Virus record (IMG/VR): IMGVR_UViG_3300024344_000052
Location: 1-36,775 of that record
Length of the DNA stretch: 36,775 nt
Source of the DNA: a virus
Reading direction: 5' to 3' (one strand)
Part shown: piece by piece, positions 26,807 to 35,821 of the stretch
Layout: every line of letters starts with the position of its first letter
How positions within the stretch are numbered: position 1 is the stretch's first letter
The notes under the pieces: model-generated
The model's input: the letters and a program-made list of their open reading frames with translations, nothing else
Database searches by the model: none
Told to the model about the DNA's origin: nothing
Position numbers and translations under genes: made by a program

Positions 26807-27303
26807 TACTGCACCCGCGCCTGATTAATCTCGCCCAGCGTCACCGTCGAACGGCCAAACCCGATCCGCTCCAGCACATTTCGATTGCCCCAAGCCATCC
26901 CCTTGAGAGCGGTCTCGTGTGCGGAGCTGATCAGGCCGTCCGCAACAAGCTGAGAAACATTGGCATCATAAACCGCCCGTACACTCGCATCGCTGGTCAA
27001 CAGCGGCGTGTCAGAGCTCATTTCCAATGCTGAAACCGTATTAATCGCCGAGTCCAGCGTGGACCTTTTGACGCCGCCCCATTTATTGACAGAGACCAGA
27101 TAAAATACCGCCGAGTGCTTATCGATATCGACGGGCACCAGAACCATCGTCGTCTCGACGTGGGTTTTTACCTGGGCAGGGGTCATGCCGCTATAAACCG
27201 CGTCCTGCAATTCAGTGCGCAGTTTTGATAAATCGCCCGCCTGGGCGAAAGACCAGGCGAGTAACAGCACGATTAACAAGCCAAAATGTTTAGCCCGAAT
27301 CAT
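26806..27303 (-). CDS. Exported protein of unknown function, 165 residues
   Basis: A clear Sec signal peptide: basic MIRAKHF, hydrophobic GLLIVLLLAWSF, then AQA with probable cleavage before GDLSKL. The mature part (TPAQVKTHVETTMVLVPVDI; HSAVFYLVSVNKWGG; ADGLISSAHETALKGMAWGN) matches no family I recognise. An exported protein among virion genes is unusual; periplasmic exclusion, lysis or host-surface modification are possible. It overlaps both neighbours by TAATG. Confidence 0.62.
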   Translation of the reverse strand: MIRAKHFGLLIVLLLAWSFAQAGDLSKLRTELQDAVYSGMTPAQVKTHVETTMVLVPVDIDKHSAVFYLVSVNKWGGVKRSTLDSAINTVSALEMSSDTPLLTSDASVRAVYDANVSQLVADGLISSAHETALKGMAWGNRNVLERIGFGRSTVTLGEINQARVQ

Positions 27304-27743
27304 TAGTTGTCTTCCTGAATCGTCAACGCTCCCGCCGCAAAACTCGGGGCCGCATCGCCGTTATTAATCGTTTTACTGGTTGTCAAAGCCGCCTGATACA
27401 GCAAATTCCCCCCGGACAGTGCATCAAAAATGCCAAAATGCGTCACTACGCCCCAGTTCGCCGTCGGAGCAGCAAACGTCACTGCATTATTATTGCTCGT
27501 GGTCCCACCGGTACCGGATGAGGCCACCGTCGATCCAGGCGCTTGCGTCCCCGCCCAATTCGCCAAAGAACTGGCCACCGCAATCCGCGCATACGCACCC
27601 CCTGCAACCTCAACACCACCGCCCGCATCGGACGGAGCGCCGGTAAACAGCGCGATAAAAACGCTGGTCGGAGCCGTAAACGGCTGACCGCGCAGAATAA
27701 AATCAGTCAGCGCATTTTCTAAATAATCAGTTTTTGCAGTCAT
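27303..27743 (-). CDS. Virion protein, possibly Gp80-type fibre/decoration
   Basis: A 146-residue protein: DYLENALTDFILRGQPFTAP, TSVFIALFTGAPSD, then GAYARIAVASSLANW, THFGIFDALSGGNLLYQAAL. This layout (net-forming start, FIALFT, GIFDA, LLYQA) is common in small phage structural proteins of the Gp80 type. ATGAGG lies before the ATG. The exact role is unknown. Confidence 0.65.
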   Translation of the reverse strand: MTAKTDYLENALTDFILRGQPFTAPTSVFIALFTGAPSDAGGGVEVAGGAYARIAVASSLANWAGTQAPGSTVASSGTGGTTSNNNAVTFAAPTANWGVVTHFGIFDALSGGNLLYQAALTTSKTINNGDAAPSFAAGALTIQEDN

Positions 27744-28318: not shown

Positions 28319-28390
28319 GGCGGGGTGGCCGAATGGACAGGCGGAAGGGTCGCAATCTTTCAAATACCGGTTCGAATCCGGTCCCCGCCT
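28319..28390 (+). tRNA. tRNA-like gene, predicted anticodon CGC, identity unclear
   Basis: A full cloverleaf of 72 bases can be drawn. The acceptor is GGCGGGG/CCCCGCC (7 bp) and the D arm is GCC/GGC with GG in the loop. The anticodon arm is GAAGG/TCTTT with two G-U pairs and loop GTCGCAA; the variable loop is CAAAT. The T arm is ACCGG-TTCGAAT-CCGGT. The discriminator is T and CCA is not encoded (CA follows). The seven-base loop gives anticodon CGC (Ala GCG codon), but the G3:U70 pair and A73 of tRNA-Ala are absent. U73 and the 3-bp D stem look more like tRNA-Cys. It lies on the plus strand between minus-strand genes. Confidence 0.62.
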
Positions 28391-28485
28391 CACTCTTTAG
28401 CTCACCGGGTTGCGGAGCTGCACAACCCGACAACTTCAATTATGGTTCCCCAAACCCACTACGTCAACCCCCGCCGTCACCGCCG

Positions 28486-28719
28486 TCAACTACCGGACAC
28501 CCGCTGACCCGCCTCATCCATCCACATCCGAATCGACACCAGATCATCTTCCACCGACTTTAAAACCTCCGCCAGCCCCGTAGAGCAGGGCACCGACAGC
28601 ATAATCTCGCCAAAATCATCGGTCACTACTGTCCCGGCCAGAAACTGCACCTTACCAATCGCCTTCTCCACCCGCTCATCCGCGGCCGATGCCGTCATAA
28701 TCCGATTACAGCTACACAT
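28486..28719 (-). CDS. Hypothetical protein, 77 residues, after the antirepressor
   Basis: From ATG 28719 (MCSCNRIMTASAADER, behind GAGGGGG) a small protein with VEKAIGKVQFLAGTVVTDDF and an acidic helical end (LAEVLKSVEDDLVSIRMWMD). It overlaps the antirepressor by 8 bases and ends before the terminator at 28256-28289. No family recognised. Confidence 0.58.
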   Translation of the reverse strand: MCSCNRIMTASAADERVEKAIGKVQFLAGTVVTDDFGEIMLSVPCSTGLAEVLKSVEDDLVSIRMWMDEAGQRVSGS

Positions 28720-29275
28720 CACCCACCCCCTCGCGGCATTCAAGCTGCTTCATCTGAGAAGCCGACAAAATCCCGTCCAACGGCTCGCCAATCTCCGACG
28801 ACAACTTACGCGCCTGCGACAAAAACACCGTCCGAAGCCCCTCATTATTGCACGAGATCGCCTCCTGCAAGGTCAACCGAATCTCCTTACGCACCGCCAA
28901 CCGGTCACGGATCGGCAGCGAAGGCGGCTGCGCCGCGATGTTTTTTATCAACTGCCGCTCGCACTCGATGAAATAGCGCCGGGCTTCCTTGCCCTTTGGG
29001 GTGCGCTCGACCATAGAGAGTTCCTTGGCCATGTCTAGGGTTAGGTTGTAGTCGATTACCTTGCGCGAGCCTCCTCGACCTTTTGAAATAATAATTTTAT
29101 TATTCCAAACAAAATCTATACCATCCTGAAAGTCATACTGTTTTATGCGTAATGCCATCCAGTTTCCAAAACGAGAACGGCATCCGAGGAACGCGTGAAG
29201 CGTTCGACCGTCTACGATGTTTTGAGAAATGTTTCCAATTTCCCCGGTGAAGACCGGAATCAGTTGATTGGACAT
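28712..29275 (-). CDS. AntA/AntB-type phage antirepressor
   Basis: A 187-residue protein. Residues 20-110 (IVDGRTLHAFLGCRSRFGNW, KQYDFQDGIDF, DYNLTLDMAKELSMVERTPK, GKEARRYFIECERQL) match the AntA antirepressor domain. The C-terminus is helical and may bind the target. Antirepressors inactivate CI-type repressors to induce prophages. The ATG has AAAGAGG in front. Its long, highly structured leader and nearby promoter-terminator pair suggest tight RNA-level control, as with antisense-controlled ant in P22-like phages. Confidence 0.82.
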   Translation of the reverse strand: MSNQLIPVFTGEIGNISQNIVDGRTLHAFLGCRSRFGNWMALRIKQYDFQDGIDFVWNNKIIISKGRGGSRKVIDYNLTLDMAKELSMVERTPKGKEARRYFIECERQLIKNIAAQPPSLPIRDRLAVRKEIRLTLQEAISCNNEGLRTVFLSQARKLSSEIGEPLDGILSASQMKQLECREGVGDV

Positions 29276-29305: not shown

Positions 29306-29389
29306 AGCCCAATAGGGCGCCGGGAGCTAAATACCGCAAAGAGACGGCCGGAATATTCCCCGAAGGTCTTGTATTATCCGACTCCCGGC
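29306..29389 (-). ncRNA. Structured 5' leader of the antirepressor mRNA
   Basis: On the minus strand GCCGGGAG (29382-29389) pairs perfectly with CTCCCGGC (29319-29326), closing a 55-base internal region. Inside, AATAC/GTATT and AGAC/GTCT helices can stack, with CCUUCGGG and the palindrome GGAATATTCC at the top. A separate GCCC-TATT-GGGC hairpin (29307-29318) adjoins the closing helix. The element ends about 30 bases before the antirepressor ATG. Nested complementarity this dense suggests a cis-acting RNA; no known riboswitch class is recognised. Confidence 0.5.
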
Positions 29390-29631: not shown

Positions 29632-30021
29632 ATGAATTTTATTAACAAGATTATTGCTTGGCATTCCAAAGAGGAATGTCAGCACACAGTACAAGTAGGC
29701 TTGCATGTTTTGATTACAAAAGAAGAGAATCTTTGGTCTGCACAAGGGCTGGAAATTGATTATGCAGCATGTGGAACCAGTTTAGAAGATGTAAAATATC
29801 GATTTGAACAGGGCTTGGACAGGACAATTAAGACCTACCTTAAAAAATGCCAGAGTATCCAGAATTTAATAAACCCCGCGCCAAGTGATGAGTGGGTGGA
29901 ATACATGAAATGTGCGTCCCATCCTCATTTAAGTATGAAAATCTGTCAGCTGGTTCCGGAAGATAACGAATTCTCTATGATAAATCACATCGGATTTATC
30001 GATAAAACTGCTACAGCTTAG
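29632..30021 (+). CDS. Plus-strand moron, HicB-like fold suspected
   Basis: A 129-residue protein behind AGGAGATGAAAA. The middle (VQVGLHVLITKEENLWSAQG, LEIDYAACGTSLEDVKYRFE) gives a beta-beta-alpha pattern like HicB/partially degraded RNase H-like domains. It stands alone on the plus strand inside a minus-strand operon, in AT-rich sequence unlike its neighbours, with its own AT-rich upstream region (TATAAA near 29571). These are signs of a recently acquired lysogenic-conversion gene. No HicA-like partner is beside it. Function unknown. Confidence 0.65.
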   Translation: MNFINKIIAWHSKEECQHTVQVGLHVLITKEENLWSAQGLEIDYAACGTSLEDVKYRFEQGLDRTIKTYLKKCQSIQNLINPAPSDEWVEYMKCASHPHLSMKICQLVPEDNEFSMINHIGFIDKTATA

Positions 30022-30186: not shown

Positions 30187-32040
30187 TTATCGCTTTTTCT
30201 CTGCCTCAAGGATTCGATTTCTGATGGTGTCAGCATCGTCGGATCGCTCGAGGTAGCGAGCCTCGGACTCAGTGAGTTGCCCGAATCCGTAGCCGTATTT
30301 TTCGACCCACCAGTTTTCAAGTTCTTGACCATGTTTGTTGCGTAATTTTTCTATTGTTGATTGGGTGACTTCAAGTTTCGCTGAATATGGCTTTCCCGTC
30401 AAGACCGTGGCTCCGATAACATCACCGCCATTCTCTTCGATATAGCCGCGCAAATTAGCCAGAGTTCCACCCTGACCGACAAAATCGTCGACTAATAAAT
30501 ACGACACGCCAGACTCGACTATGCCACCAAAAGCTGCGGGCGTGGCCAGGCGGCTGTAACCGGAGGCACCTGTATGTCCGACCCGGTTAATTTGCACAAT
30601 ACTTTTATCTGTTGGGCGCCCTAATACACGGGCCAAAACAACGGCCAGAGCCTCAGGAATCATATTAACACCCTCAGATTCCTCCGCACTCACACTGATC
30701 AGTATGGCTTTTTCATTTTCCAGCAATCGATCAATGTCTATTATAGACTGGCGGCTTACTGTATCAGAAACCAGTCGTTTCGCAGCGTCTCGGTCTCCAG
30801 ATTTGGCTGCACGGTAATCCGAGTGTTGTTTAACAGCGCTTTCTGATGCATGAATCGATACATCGGGAAATCCATTCCATGTTGCACGGGGTACTTTCAC
30901 GCGATTGCCCTCAATAATCGGTACGCTAAAGTGTAGCGCATCGGTGTCAATACCGCTTTTCTGATATCTGACTTTTAAGTTTGCCCACGGCGTTAATATT
31001 TGCCTTTCTTTTAATACACCACTCTGCAAGGCGGCGGCTTTTTTCGTCGAACCCAAAACACTCGCTTGCGTAGAAGCAGATTGTCGCTTCAACCAGTCGA
31101 TACGGTTTTCTTTTCCTCTTTTGTCAGACGATTTCACCTCATCATCAAACACAACCTCAACAAAACTTTTTGTATTCGGATGCGCGGGCCAAGGACTGCG
31201 GCCTTTTGGATACACACCCGGCCCAAGCCCAAAGCGGTTCACACTGGCATGCATATCACAGATGTCCACCTTCGGATGCCCAGGCGACAACAAAAACCGG
31301 GTACCAATCACGTCCGGATGTTCAAACGCCGCGGCTTGATACGCTTCGCCGTGCGCCCGGTTGATCTCAGTACGAAATAACCGCAGCGCATTATCGTAAG
31401 GACTCCCAGGATTTTTCAGTATTTCATCCCGAATCCGACCGCCGACCCGTTCCGCCGAGGCCTGCTTGATCTTCCGCTGCAAATCGCCCGGAACCGGTTG
31501 ACCACGCGCCAGCAATGCCTCTGCCGCCTGTGTCGCCGAGTGCCCCTGAATCACTGCCTGTTCAATCGCTTCCTGCACCACCCTCCGTGCATGTCGATCA
31601 TTACGCCAAATGCGATCCGACAACTGCAACCCGTCGGCCGCCACAAAATCCCGCACAAACCGCACCGCATCATCGGCGATCTGAGACAGACTCGATCCAA
31701 CTACAACCGAATCCACCGCCAAAGGCTCCACGCCGATCTTTGCCGCCTCAACAAAAGAACGATCCAGCAAATCCAGCTTTGCATTCTCCAACTGCGCCAA
31801 TCGCGCCTGCGCCTGACCCAAAAGATCCTGCAAAGTCTCAAGTCGCAGAGAGCCCTGGCCATCCGCGTATTGCTTGACCTGGTCGTCCAAATCATCCACC
31901 GCCTGACGGTAGATGCGCGTCAGATCCGCCAAAGCCTCCTTATCCAACCGCGACATCGACCGCCGGGCCTTCGCCGATCCGCGCTTGATCGCGGCTTTCT
32001 GAGCCGTCCGTTGGTTTTCCGCCAGTACAACCGCAACCAT
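30187..32040 (-). CDS. MuF-type minor head protein fused to phosphoribosyltransferase domain
   Basis: A 617-residue protein. Residues about 1-240 are helical (DKEALADLTRIYRQAVDDLD; AIEQAVIQGHSATQAAEALL) and RLFRTEINRAHGEAYQAAA leads to DICDMHASVNRFGLGPGVYP with WPAHPNTKSF, the Mu F/SPP1 gp7 head-morphogenesis domain. After a linker, residues about 390-600 hold a PRPP-type phosphoribosyltransferase: AAKSGDRDAAKRLVSDTVSR near 400-430 and YLLVDDFVGQGGTLANL near 512-528 (VDD-x4-GGT PRPP loop). MuF proteins enter the head and can be ejected with DNA, and many carry C-terminal effectors. A base- or nucleotide-modifying role of this domain is inference. Confidence 0.82.
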   Translation of the reverse strand: MVAVVLAENQRTAQKAAIKRGSAKARRSMSRLDKEALADLTRIYRQAVDDLDDQVKQYADGQGSLRLETLQDLLGQAQARLAQLENAKLDLLDRSFVEAAKIGVEPLAVDSVVVGSSLSQIADDAVRFVRDFVAADGLQLSDRIWRNDRHARRVVQEAIEQAVIQGHSATQAAEALLARGQPVPGDLQRKIKQASAERVGGRIRDEILKNPGSPYDNALRLFRTEINRAHGEAYQAAAFEHPDVIGTRFLLSPGHPKVDICDMHASVNRFGLGPGVYPKGRSPWPAHPNTKSFVEVVFDDEVKSSDKRGKENRIDWLKRQSASTQASVLGSTKKAAALQSGVLKERQILTPWANLKVRYQKSGIDTDALHFSVPIIEGNRVKVPRATWNGFPDVSIHASESAVKQHSDYRAAKSGDRDAAKRLVSDTVSRQSIIDIDRLLENEKAILISVSAEESEGVNMIPEALAVVLARVLGRPTDKSIVQINRVGHTGASGYSRLATPAAFGGIVESGVSYLLVDDFVGQGGTLANLRGYIEENGGDVIGATVLTGKPYSAKLEVTQSTIEKLRNKHGQELENWWVEKYGYGFGQLTESEARYLERSDDADTIRNRILEAEKKR

Positions 32041-32044
32041 AAAG

Positions 32045-32518
32045 CTACAGTTTCATAATGACAGACGTTTTTTTCTTAAACCCAGACACCGTGCCTGCTC
32101 CCAGGACAGTGTTGTAATACTTTTTCCAGTACTCCGCGAGTCCGTTCAGATCGTCCGCATCCGGAAGCCGGGCCGGGACCCGTAAGTAATGAACCCGGCA
32201 CATCGCGGTGGCGTAATAAGCGTTTCCGTGTAACTGCTGCGCCCGAGTTAGTCCAGGCACTAACAGATGTTCCACGCCAGATTCGACCTGTTTTTTAAAC
32301 TTCAAAAAATTCCTCCAGATGTCATCATGCGTCGCCAGCTCCATCTGGTACCAGCTCCGCGCCGGGCCTTTGTGTAGCTGCCGAACATACTTGAATCCGG
32401 ACTCAGCCAGCCCGGTACCTATAATCAAACGCTCTGCCGATTTGCTGTAATACCCAATTTCCTCAAGCGTAGGCCGGACAATATAATCCCGTATTTGCCT
32501 CAGTCCGGTGATATTCAT
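32045..32518 (-). CDS. Lytic-transglycosylase-like virion/lysis protein
   Basis: A 157-residue protein with IRDYIVRPTLEEIGYYSKSA, LIIGTGLAESGFKYVRQLHK, then GPARSWYQMELATHDDIW. The ESGF followed by a GPA-x-x-x-YQM segment resembles the Glu-Ser-Gly and Gly-x-x-Gln-Met motifs of SLT-type transglycosylases, with E37 or so as catalytic acid. It could open peptidoglycan during DNA entry or exit. No signal peptide. The assignment rests on short motifs. ATG overlaps the upstream stop (ATGA). Confidence 0.5.
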   Translation of the reverse strand: MNITGLRQIRDYIVRPTLEEIGYYSKSAERLIIGTGLAESGFKYVRQLHKGPARSWYQMELATHDDIWRNFLKFKKQVESGVEHLLVPGLTRAQQLHGNAYYATAMCRVHYLRVPARLPDADDLNGLAEYWKKYYNTVLGAGTVSGFKKKTSVIMKL

Positions 32519-32885: not shown

Positions 32886-34256
32886 TCACCCCCGGGTGCT
32901 AATGGTTGTAGAACTTTCACCTTTCGGCGCATTGCCCGGCGTCACGCTGACGTTAGGACCACCGCGGCCAATATTGTTCGGATCCGGAAACGGATCGTCC
33001 TCGTTTGCCTCAGCCTCGCGCTGTGCCCGCACATCTGCGGGATTCAACCCGGCCGACTGCCAGATCATATCCTTTGGAACGCCCATTGCCTGGTGTTTCA
33101 GCGCCAGGTCTGCGCGTTGATTCGGCGTATCCGTGCGACGCTCAGCAAACTGCACAGAAAACTCAACATCGTCCGGATTAATCCCGCGCATCAGTAAATC
33201 CAGTCGGAATATATTTTCATACGCCATCGATTGCGTATCCTGCAGCGCGTCGATCTCTTCAAAAAAATCCTTTTTCAGATCCTCAAGAATGTCCCGATTC
33301 AACCCCTCGCTGTAACCAAACAGCGCTTTGGGCGCAGGCGTACCCGCAAAAAAAGTATCCAACAGATAACTGACATCGGCGATTTGATCGAGATTTGCAT
33401 CACCCTGGACCGCCGACACTCCGCCTTTTCGATTCAAATAGAAATCAGTCGTGATCTGATCCTGGTCCATCTCGATTTTGTTTCTATAATCCAGTAGATC
33501 CTCTTTCGTCGCACCTTCCAGAACATGCGCCATACGCAGCGGCGCACGAGTCCGGCGACGAATCACCAGATCCTCTTCGGTCATCGTCAGTTTTCGCCAA
33601 ACCGTTCGATTCGCATCCAGGTACGGCCGACCCCGAGCGCCGAAGTCGTCAAAGTTATCCGGCGTCAGGCGTACAGTCTCCAGTTGCCACAACGGATACT
33701 CGGCAATTTTTATCCCGGTCGTCAGGTCGTATTGTTCCCAGGCTTTTCTCGGATCAATAAACGTGCCGTTGGCATTCACTCTCGGCAACAAAGTCTCAGC
33801 CGCCATGCGCACACACTGCACCACCTGGCCCGTCGGATCGATAACCACTTGCAAAGCCAGATTGCCTTCCATAAGCAATCCACGCGCATCGCTTTTCAGT
33901 TTTTGATGATTCTTCAACCCCAGACGCCGTTCAAAATCTGCCCAGGCTTTAATTAATCTCTTGTGACTGCTGCCGGTTTTGAGTTTCAGCCCACCTTTTA
34001 CGACCGACTCAGCCACCCGCTTATGTATCCGTTTTACCCGGCCATCCACCCGATCCATTTCCCGAATGTCCAATATCGCCGCGCGTAGATCAGGATCGAC
34101 CCACATCAGACGATACAGATACTTCATATAATTTTCTGGAGTCGATCGATAACCGATCTCCGACCAATTCGACGGGGTCTCGCCGGGTAACAACTTACCC
34201 GCAAGCATACTGCGCCGGTTTTGAGTCACTGCCGCTAAATCTTGTATAACACCCAT
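32886..34256 (-). CDS. Portal protein (Mu gp29/DUF935-like)
   Basis: A 456-residue protein: YRLMWVDPDLRAAILDIREM, GNLALQVVIDPTGQVVQCVR, WEQYDLTTGIKIAEYPLWQL, and GYSEGLNRDILEDLKKDFFE match the phage portal fold of the DUF935 or related type. It forms the dodecameric DNA channel of the head. I chose ATG 34256, overlapping the terminase stop (TGATG); a TTG one codon earlier also fits. Confidence 0.85.
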   Translation of the reverse strand: MGVIQDLAAVTQNRRSMLAGKLLPGETPSNWSEIGYRSTPENYMKYLYRLMWVDPDLRAAILDIREMDRVDGRVKRIHKRVAESVVKGGLKLKTGSSHKRLIKAWADFERRLGLKNHQKLKSDARGLLMEGNLALQVVIDPTGQVVQCVRMAAETLLPRVNANGTFIDPRKAWEQYDLTTGIKIAEYPLWQLETVRLTPDNFDDFGARGRPYLDANRTVWRKLTMTEEDLVIRRRTRAPLRMAHVLEGATKEDLLDYRNKIEMDQDQITTDFYLNRKGGVSAVQGDANLDQIADVSYLLDTFFAGTPAPKALFGYSEGLNRDILEDLKKDFFEEIDALQDTQSMAYENIFRLDLLMRGINPDDVEFSVQFAERRTDTPNQRADLALKHQAMGVPKDMIWQSAGLNPADVRAQREAEANEDDPFPDPNNIGRGGPNVSVTPGNAPKGESSTTISTRG

Positions 34257-35821
34257 CAAGCCACCCGCTCTAGTAGTTGTTTCCGCGTTTTCGTCTCAGT
34301 CAGAATTGCCCCCGGGGCCTGGTAAGCACCACGCGTCACCAAGCCCCAAACCGCCGCCATCGCCGCATCGAATAAATCATCACCCAACTTTGCATTCGCC
34401 ATTTTGTAACTCGCATAACTGGCTTTCGTTTTTTCCGGCACGATATTCGGCAACTGGCGCACAAAATCGCGGAAATCCTCCAACTCTGGATCGTCCGATT
34501 GATCATCAAAATAAGGAATAGCCGCCTGGTTATTGTGAAATATGGAACGCAGGGCAGTCGCCATTTGATGCTTTGTCATACCCTCAAACCGAATCGGCGA
34601 AAACGCCCAATCAGGCCAGGTGCTCGCCGTACTGTCCCCATCCGCCACCGAACGCCGATCAATATCAGTCAGGCCCGCAGCAAACAGTTCATCATTTAAT
34701 TGAGTCAACATCCCAACGCCGTAAGCGTCACCGAATGCAGTGTCCGGCTGAAAATATTCCCAGAACCCGATCAAGTCCCGTTTCACCACCTGGTCGTCAG
34801 CACCAGCAACCCACGTTTTCACAAAAGGAAAACAAACATAATTACCAATCTGCTCAACCACTACCAGAGCATGCTTTGAAGCCGTCGCACTCTCACCATG
34901 TCCACTGGCATCGTACCCAAACCCCAAAAGCCCACGCTTTCTGTATTTCTCTCCCGGTAACGGCTGCGCCAGGGACAATTTTGCCATCAGCCCAACTTGC
35001 AACGCCCGACGCACATACTTTTCATAAATCAGATTGCGAGCGCTGACATTTTTGCACAGCAGCTGGCGCATATATTCATCCGGCGATAACTGGTCTCGCA
35101 TCTCAGTCATAAACTGACGATTAATAATGCCCATTTCCATACCCAGATGGACATCGATAATGGGCAGAGTAGAGTATCCCGAGCTGTTCACCAGATCAGT
35201 CAGAGTATCAGCGCCTTTGAACACGCCGGTTATTCGAATCTGTGGATCATTCTTACTGTTTTCGCTCGCGCCCAGGCGACGCGCCGAACCCATCATCAAA
35301 AGAAACCGGGAAAACAATCGATCCTTGGGCATGTCGTCGACTTCCTCAAGCGATGCCGCGGTCAGATCGCCACCATCGACCTGAGCCATAATGCCGTAAG
35401 CCTGAGCCTTCGAACGATTGGCAAACTGATAATAAGTGTCCGCCAGCTGCTTTCGGCCACTTTTCACCATCAAATAATTTTGCAGGATTTCAGAGCGACG
35501 AATCGCATCCATGTGATACCCCAGATTAACCAATGCCTGGGCCTCGCGCGGCGCGACAATCCCGAGCTCCTGATCGCCATTGCAAGCATTGTGCATTAAA
35601 AGGTAGAGCTCCTTTACAGCCGTCTTTCCGGTGCGTCTGCACGAGTAATCAACAGTATTATTCGCCTTGTCCATATCCAGACACTTCAACACCTGCATGG
35701 CATCAAGATCGACATTGTGAATATGCTTGTGCCACAGCGCATGATCCCCGGCATAGCGATGTATCTCACGCTCCGCGACATTCTCCAGCTCTACCCGCTG
35801 AGCGGCGCTAACCCTAGCCAT
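34256..35821 (-). CDS. Terminase large subunit
   Basis: A 521-residue protein from ATG 35821 (MARVSAAQRVELENV), which overlaps the upstream stop by 8 bases. Walker A is CRRTGKT near residues 61-67, and ASLEEVDDMP the Walker B/catalytic Glu. The nuclease half has LLGFGYDASGHGESATASKH (first Asp) and DTAFGDAYGVG. It pumps DNA into the prohead and cuts it. Length and motif order fit the family. Confidence 0.92.
   Translation of the reverse strand: MARVSAAQRVELENVAEREIHRYAGDHALWHKHIHNVDLDAMQVLKCLDMDKANNTVDYSCRRTGKTAVKELYLLMHNACNGDQELGIVAPREAQALVNLGYHMDAIRRSEILQNYLMVKSGRKQLADTYYQFANRSKAQAYGIMAQVDGGDLTAASLEEVDDMPKDRLFSRFLLMMGSARRLGASENSKNDPQIRITGVFKGADTLTDLVNSSGYSTLPIIDVHLGMEMGIINRQFMTEMRDQLSPDEYMRQLLCKNVSARNLIYEKYVRRALQVGLMAKLSLAQPLPGEKYRKRGLLGFGYDASGHGESATASKHALVVVEQIGNYVCFPFVKTWVAGADDQVVKRDLIGFWEYFQPDTAFGDAYGVGMLTQLNDELFAAGLTDIDRRSVADGDSTASTWPDWAFSPIRFEGMTKHQMATALRSIFHNNQAAIPYFDDQSDDPELEDFRDFVRQLPNIVPEKTKASYASYKMANAKLGDDLFDAAMAAVWGLVTRGAYQAPGAILTETKTRKQLLERVA

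Follow-up and report, generated by a model that had tools for sequence, protein, structure and literature searches.

MuF proteins are components of the phage head, and the domains fused to them have been proposed to be delivered with the DNA (PMC5512222, PMC5576092). Fusions of MuF proteins with phosphoribosyltransferases (PRTases) in phages and prophages were already reported by Iyer et al. 2017, who called the role of PRTases in phages and plasmids enigmatic and also proposed a DNA-linked role (PMC5512222). In the MuF polymorphic toxins described by Jamet et al. 2017, a head scaffold is followed by a variable C-terminus, and proteobacterial MuF proteins carry an unnamed Ct_MAD domain (PMC5576092). 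The words phosphoribosyl and PRTase are absent from the main text of PMC5576092, and Kfr and XopC are absent from the available text of PMC5512222. A further system is KfrC of the IncU plasmid RA3, which has a C-terminal part of its own that binds KorB and VirD4. Excess KfrC slows the growth of E. coli, an effect that is abolished when its DDT motif is replaced with three alanines, and strongly condenses the nucleoid in E. coli and P. putida (PMC8124265). The terms MuF and polyvalent are absent from the available text of that study.

The DNA analysed here, which we call the window, comprises 36,775 bases and is a virus record from IMG/VR. The preliminary description had noted in one of its proteins a head-morphogenesis domain followed in one frame by a PRTase, and both were recovered in that order: PHROG 1657 ('head morphogenesis') covers residues 17-303 at E 1.2e-35, and PHROG 22413, whose function is unassigned there, covers residues 393-615 at E 1.4e-62. 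The computed start of the PRTase domain, at about residue 385, agrees with the ~390 given earlier. The start of the 617-aa ORF (Table 1) lies 4 bases from the stop of the upstream gene 32045-32518. The product of the gene at 29632-30021 (+), which by eye resembled HicB, was set aside as an immunity protein, since it matched nothing in Pfam, PHROG or PADLOC and none of 96 related loci held a relative at E <= 1e-4.

As in the MuF polymorphic toxins, the window protein joins a head scaffold to a variable C-terminus, but no cognate immunity gene was seen beside it. With the mobile-element PRTases of polyvalent proteins it shares the MuF fusion and the catalytic DD; this comparison uses the wording of Iyer et al. 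2017 rather than an alignment, and D518, D519 and R497 are each invariant in 43 of 43 domains in our own set. The fusion itself is known in kind, and what is added here are the links to KfrC toxicity, to Csb2 and to ruvAB and the exchange of C-termini on matched scaffolds. On balance, we lean towards the reading that the protein would be packaged and ejected, and that in the new host its PRTase would act in a PRPP-dependent manner on nucleotides or on the handling of DNA; the preliminary description had suggested that it could act on host nucleotides or signals after ejection.

Table 1. Coordinates of features in the window and of Csb2 genes that carry a PRTase insert.
Feature	Position	Strand	Basis
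Predicted MuF-like minor head protein with C-terminal PRTase, 617 aa	30187..32040	-	ORF; ATG start; PHROG 1657 and PHROG 22413
Predicted head-morphogenesis (MuF-like) scaffold, residues 1-330	31051..32040	-	PHROG 1657; tblastn; AF2 pLDDT 79.3
Junction (~residues 352-384), end of the identity to scaffold relatives that have other C-termini	30889..30987	-	alignment, sliding identity
Predicted type I PRTase domain, ~residues 385-617	30190..30888	-	PHROG 22413; AF2 pLDDT 94.7; PDB fold matches
PRPP loop VDDFVGQGGT, residues 517-526	30463..30492	-	D518 and D519 invariant, 43/43 domains
R497 codon	30550..30552	-	invariant 43/43; model strands
Portal-like gene, upstream, same strand	32886..34259	-	PHROG head morphogenesis 2e-23, portal 2.5e-8
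Head protein gene, downstream	27303..27743	-	PHROG 240
Rfam sRNA-Xcc1, near AntA-type antirepressor gene, downstream of head protein	29311-29389	-	Rfam
tRNA-Ala (CGC), near AntA-type antirepressor gene 28712-29275	28319-28391	+	
129-aa gene, opposite strand, in gap after head-protein gene	29632-30021	+	no family match
Csb2 with PRTase insert	L130:7314-9665		
Csb2 with PRTase insert	L113:7230-9710		
Csb2 with PRTase insert	L141:3902-6247		
Csb2 with PRTase insert	L197:814-3162		

A tblastn search with the scaffold returned 34 phage records. Seven of the 20 listed are annotated as head morphogenesis, minor head or MuF-like, and the others are mostly hypothetical, with one terminase large subunit. 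The match in Arthrobacter phage Wollypog is annotated 'MuF-like minor capsid protein'. Judging from its annotated homologues and its place after the portal gene, the window protein can be classed as a MuF-like head morphogenesis protein in the broad sense. Two results count against the reading we favour: Pfam Phage_Mu_F (PF04233) finds no match in the window scaffold, and the AlphaFold (AF2) model of the scaffold (10 sequences, pLDDT 79.3) has no PDB match at E <= 0.001. PF04233 matches 11 of 14 tested head-type PRTase fusions at E <= 0.01, nine of them above the cut-off, with misses in L011, L012 and L033. In a profile comparison with a MuF set, the alignment is collinear but weak (prob 7, E 0.0049). 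A structural search for a MuF fold was uninformative, as the VIA rows are mostly helical bundles or other helical proteins. A BFVD search gave four matches at E <= 0.001, all of them proteins of large DNA viruses. Elsewhere, an 892-aa head protein (L029:2035-4713) contains Phage_Mu_F, a PRTase and an Intein_splicing match below the cut-off (25 of 35.8 bits).

The PRTase domain (residues 380-617, 39 sequences) was modeled by AlphaFold with a mean pLDDT of 94.7 and a pTM of 0.92. A Foldseek search with this model found 78 PDB chains at E <= 0.001, headed by H. pylori ComF (7p0h, E 4.4e-6). The titles of the best 50 of these 78 name PRTases or PRTase-fold proteins, xanthine PRTase, PurR, APRT and ShosT among them, except for titles that give no function (4paw, 2dy0). 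VIA-align ranks ComF first (Z 12.1, 159 residues, 3.0 A) and human APRT next (Z 10.5), and the PRTase family profile matches APRT-type chains around the PRPP loop (E 6.5e-6). The TM-scores by query length are modest, 0.28-0.48 among the matches listed, which counts against our reading. As a prediction, a type I PRTase fold with an intact PRPP loop carrying DD and GGT is confirmed by matches far beyond chance, in line with what had been proposed. The Pfam Pribosyltran match is weak (residues 465-556, E 0.0022, 17.7 bits against a cut-off of 26.3); therefore, routine annotation could miss the domain. An NCBIfam match to the XopC/Rsp1239 effector (residues 478-561, E 0.001, 17.3 bits against a cut-off of 1000) was rejected as likeness at the superfamily level.

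The residues D518, D519, R497, E454, N459 and Q483 are invariant in all 43 non-redundant domains, a set built from matches stronger than 1e-60 (87 domains, reduced to 43 at 85% identity) that excludes the split L006 copies and a piece from L088. R497 comes after the second core strand (model residues 102-104). The invariance of GGT..A..G arises partly from the search pattern, which included the GGT part. Position 523 is Q, which counts against our reading; the corresponding position of the PRPP loop is usually T, S or A in enzymes. Two motifs had been assigned to PRPP-dependent PRTases in general: VDDFVGQGGT is indeed the PRPP loop, but AAKSGDRDAAKRLV, which is conserved within this PRTase subfamily, is a signature of the subfamily and, to our knowledge, not a general PRTase motif.

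A scan for the scaffold only found seven relatives with 52-67% identity to the window, none of which carries the PRTase; this was a pattern scan, and it missed L010-L012, which have both scaffold and PRTase. The VDD-GGT region is absent from all seven, so it lies outside the conserved scaffold, as the preliminary description required, and the identity of these relatives to the window collapses past about residue 352. Four of them end in a C-terminus with HNHP-x5-S-x2-D and one in a C-terminus with HEIGH, and two stop at 373-374 aa. Pfam has no family for the C-termini of the scaffold relatives; by eye, we take the HNHP-x5-S-x2-D type to be JAB-like and the HEIGH type to be metallopeptidase-like. 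The relatives with these two types of C-terminus are L091:2725-4539, L092:2346-4091 and L095-L097. The window scaffold is closer to that of L091, which has a different C-terminus (66.8%), than to those of L011 (50.7%) and L012 (47.1%), both of which have the PRTase. The scaffolds of the Moraxella phages Mcat8 and Mcat5 share 95.7% identity over 351 aa, but in Mcat5 the PRTase is broken: the head protein stops at 354 aa, and separate ORFs hold pieces of the PRTase; therefore, the head does not need the PRTase. In these alignments, the PRTase domain behaves as exchangeable cargo, the same scaffold carrying other C-termini or none.

A search for the same fusion in other phages had been suggested, and fusions of this kind were found. 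By tblastn, the domain occurs in 2 of 50,697 phage records (Moraxella Mcat8 and Mcat5) and in 170 of 72,556 plasmid records. A pattern scan of viral_contigs kept 80 loci, with 89 of 94 stretches confirmed, and a single-sequence scan of the same collection gave 12 stretches, none confirmed. The carriers are head-type fusions, polyvalent proteins of ~1,600-3,900 aa and solo proteins of ~245 aa. In a tree of 84 rows, labelled according to ORF geometry (L048 is labelled solo despite a Phage_Mu_F match), the head-fusion label needs 10 changes, at least seven of them forced by well-supported branches. The window belongs to a well-supported group of 45 rows, in which 34 carry the solo label, and has no starred sister group; L105 and L005 sit on long branches. 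Across 11 proteins from the different settings, hand-picked by the analyst, 40 positions are invariant. In this alignment, the window domain is closer to the PRTases inserted in Csb2 (50-55% identity) and to the ruvAB-linked ones (49%) than to those of Mcat8 (41%) or KfrC (38%).

The genome scan gave 55 PRTase loci. Three of them (L113, L130 and L141) have the PRTase as an in-frame insert in Csb2, so that Cas_GSU0054 matches as two stretches flanking the insert; a fourth case, L197, lies in the genome of L126 (Table 1). Csb2 is a fusion of a Cas5-like protein with Cas6 whose domains meet in a linker at R260 (PMC9638904), and the insert sits between these two halves. NCBIfam scores for type I-G Csb2 are 278 bits in L130 and 303 bits in L197 against a cut-off of 45. 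The neighbours of the L130 gene are Csb1/Cas7g, Cas3g and Cas4g/Cas1g by NCBIfam, with six CRISPR-like repeats and, by eye, a cas2-like gene. The carrier here is the Cas5-Cas6 subunit of a host immune system, in contrast to the phage head protein of the window. Solo PRTases lie beside I-G genes in two further loci of the 55, L126 (7935-8729) and L129 (7989-8774), and PRTase remnants by cas3 in L188 and by csb2 in L198. Among 369 genomes of one class, Csb2 is present in eight, with no PRTase in any of those loci (2.7-4.0 kb each); the PRTase is found in 9 of the 369, five of them strong, in a sample centred on a genome chosen for having one. Our literature search, which covered neither subscription papers nor preprints, returned no paper joining Csb2 or type I-U with a phosphoribosyltransferase.

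In another five of the 55 loci (L137, L139, L140, L142 and L143, from Duganella, Rugamonas and kin), ruvA and ruvB flank a solo PRTase; both gene names were confirmed for L137 (region L137:7348-9940). In a family sample of 195 Oxalobacteraceae genomes, which includes G001 and G003, chosen as gene carriers, 14 match the PRTase, and five of these (L153, L157-L160) have the order ruvA-PRTase-ruvB; L153 is L137's own genome, L158 and L142 have identical PRTases, and an internal stop interrupts L157. The ruvAB-linked PRTases are less conserved than their neighbours, yet they are under purifying selection (dN/dS 0.09-0.17). DNA-linked settings therefore recur, with the same PRTase subfamily inside Csb2 and between ruvA and ruvB, although both links are rare, which counts against our reading. 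Around solo PRTases in general, no family exceeds 3 of the 90 entries scanned out of at least 117 (HSDR_N 3, gyrB 2). Among 449 neighbours of 53 solo-like loci, the larger shared clusters come from the L080-L088 prophages and the ruvAB group, and a few mixed clusters of 3-4 loci are also present. Two Undibacterium genomes (L102:5321-8693; L145:5175-8693) have a gyrB-like gene directly upstream of the solo PRTase.

KfrC of RA3 (L089, 355 aa) is 39% identical to the PRTase domain over 232 aa, and its DDT at 141-143 aligns with the DDF of the window. Both proteins share the R.W..FP start, the DD and a C-terminal LT..EA motif. KfrC has no head scaffold, whereas the window protein has one in front and ends right after the PRTase, without a KfrC-type C-terminal part. 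Given this kinship and the published substitution of DDT, the family of the window domain has one member whose growth effect needs the motif with the PRPP-loop aspartates. Against our reading, the effects of excess KfrC vary by host, with growth of C. necator unaffected, and excess KfrA is more harmful than excess KfrC (PMC8124265). A second case of toxicity that depends on the PRPP site of a PRTase fold is RqlH, which differs as a helicase fusion: its genotoxicity needs the PRTase domain and is mostly removed by D663A, but the PRTase domain alone does not inhibit growth, which again counts against our reading (PMC4670107). ShosT (PDB 8zvc, 8zvd) has the PRTase fold in common with the window; of five proteins tested against the PADLOC ShosT family, only the solo relative L081 matches, weakly (E 5.7e-4), the window matches no PADLOC family, and our literature search found no paper on the mechanism of ShosT.

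In the reading we favour, the window gene would encode a minor head protein, its MuF-like scaffold being encoded with portal and head genes and its last ~230 residues forming a type I PRTase module that belongs to a mobile-element family and can be exchanged. The protein would be built into the virion, and the PRTase would enter the new host along with the DNA. There it may bind PRPP-Mg through DD518-519 and use or sense PRPP on a nucleotide or on exposed DNA, so that host DNA metabolism would be disturbed or steered during entry. At a high dose, such an activity would slow bacterial growth, as published for KfrC. A DNA-linked role is favoured over bulk salvage because the carriers share DNA settings, namely ejection, conjugation, Cascade, Holliday-junction genes and DNA uptake by ComFC.

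ComFC (PDB 7p0h), the nearest solved fold, has the PRPP loop and a DNA-entry setting in common with the window at 16-17% identity, whereas its N-terminal zinc finger has no counterpart seen in the window protein. ComFC binds ssDNA, and its PRPP loop is required for DNA transport but not for ssDNA binding; a PRTase fold may therefore bind nucleotides without known catalysis, which counts against our reading (PMC9005727). This gives weight to a tentative alternative, that the domain is a non-catalytic sensor or DNA-handling module, ComFC- or PurR-like, that would bind PRPP or nucleotides and help the entering DNA without phosphoribosyl transfer. PurR is also the best named PRTase-fold match with the single sequence, while APRT chains come first with the family profile. 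The invariant DD and R497 and the DD-dependent inhibition by KfrC (PMC8124265) fit an enzyme at least as well, and a binding-site mutant of a sensor would look alike.

That the protein is a classical polymorphic MuF toxin, a growth inhibitor that an immunity protein encoded nearby keeps in check in the lysogen, is unlikely: swappable toxin C-termini are known on MuF proteins (PMC5576092) and the family member KfrC inhibits growth (PMC8124265), but no immunity candidate was recognised near the head-protein gene and many relatives in genomes are solo genes. Still less probable is an enzyme of nucleotide salvage, expanding the pool of nucleotides on which phage replication draws. Although type I PRTases are mostly salvage enzymes and APRT, XPRT and HGPRT folds are among the matches, in neither Pfam nor NCBIfam does a salvage family score up to its cut-off, bulk salvage is not what fusions to Csb2 and KfrC point to, and minor head proteins occur at low copy number. 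A neutral passenger, as which the PRTase broken in Mcat5 on a nearly unchanged scaffold would count, being dispensable for the head, is the most improbable, since dN/dS is ~0.11 for L011-L012 and 0.20 for L012-L009 (of six pairs near the window, the two in which dS is unsaturated, and rough because dS is ~2), the ruvAB-linked solos are also constrained, and the active-site residues are invariant.

Building on the favoured, PRPP-dependent reading, a doubtful but more far-reaching proposal is that one module serves on both sides of the phage-host conflict, as ejected head cargo and as a Csb2 domain. Its site of action would be DNA exposed in single-stranded or branched form, such as the entering genome, the R-loop and the Holliday junction. 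The copy on the phage side could rival or counteract that of the CRISPR system. With head cargo, KfrC and the Csb2 domain in one family, the proteins to examine are well defined and a single substitution can be tried in them. An activity found in any member could be checked in a phage head protein, a plasmid stability and transfer protein and a CRISPR subunit. These family ties make a long-standing question on mobile PRTase modules testable, and the main interest lies in the insertion into Csb2.
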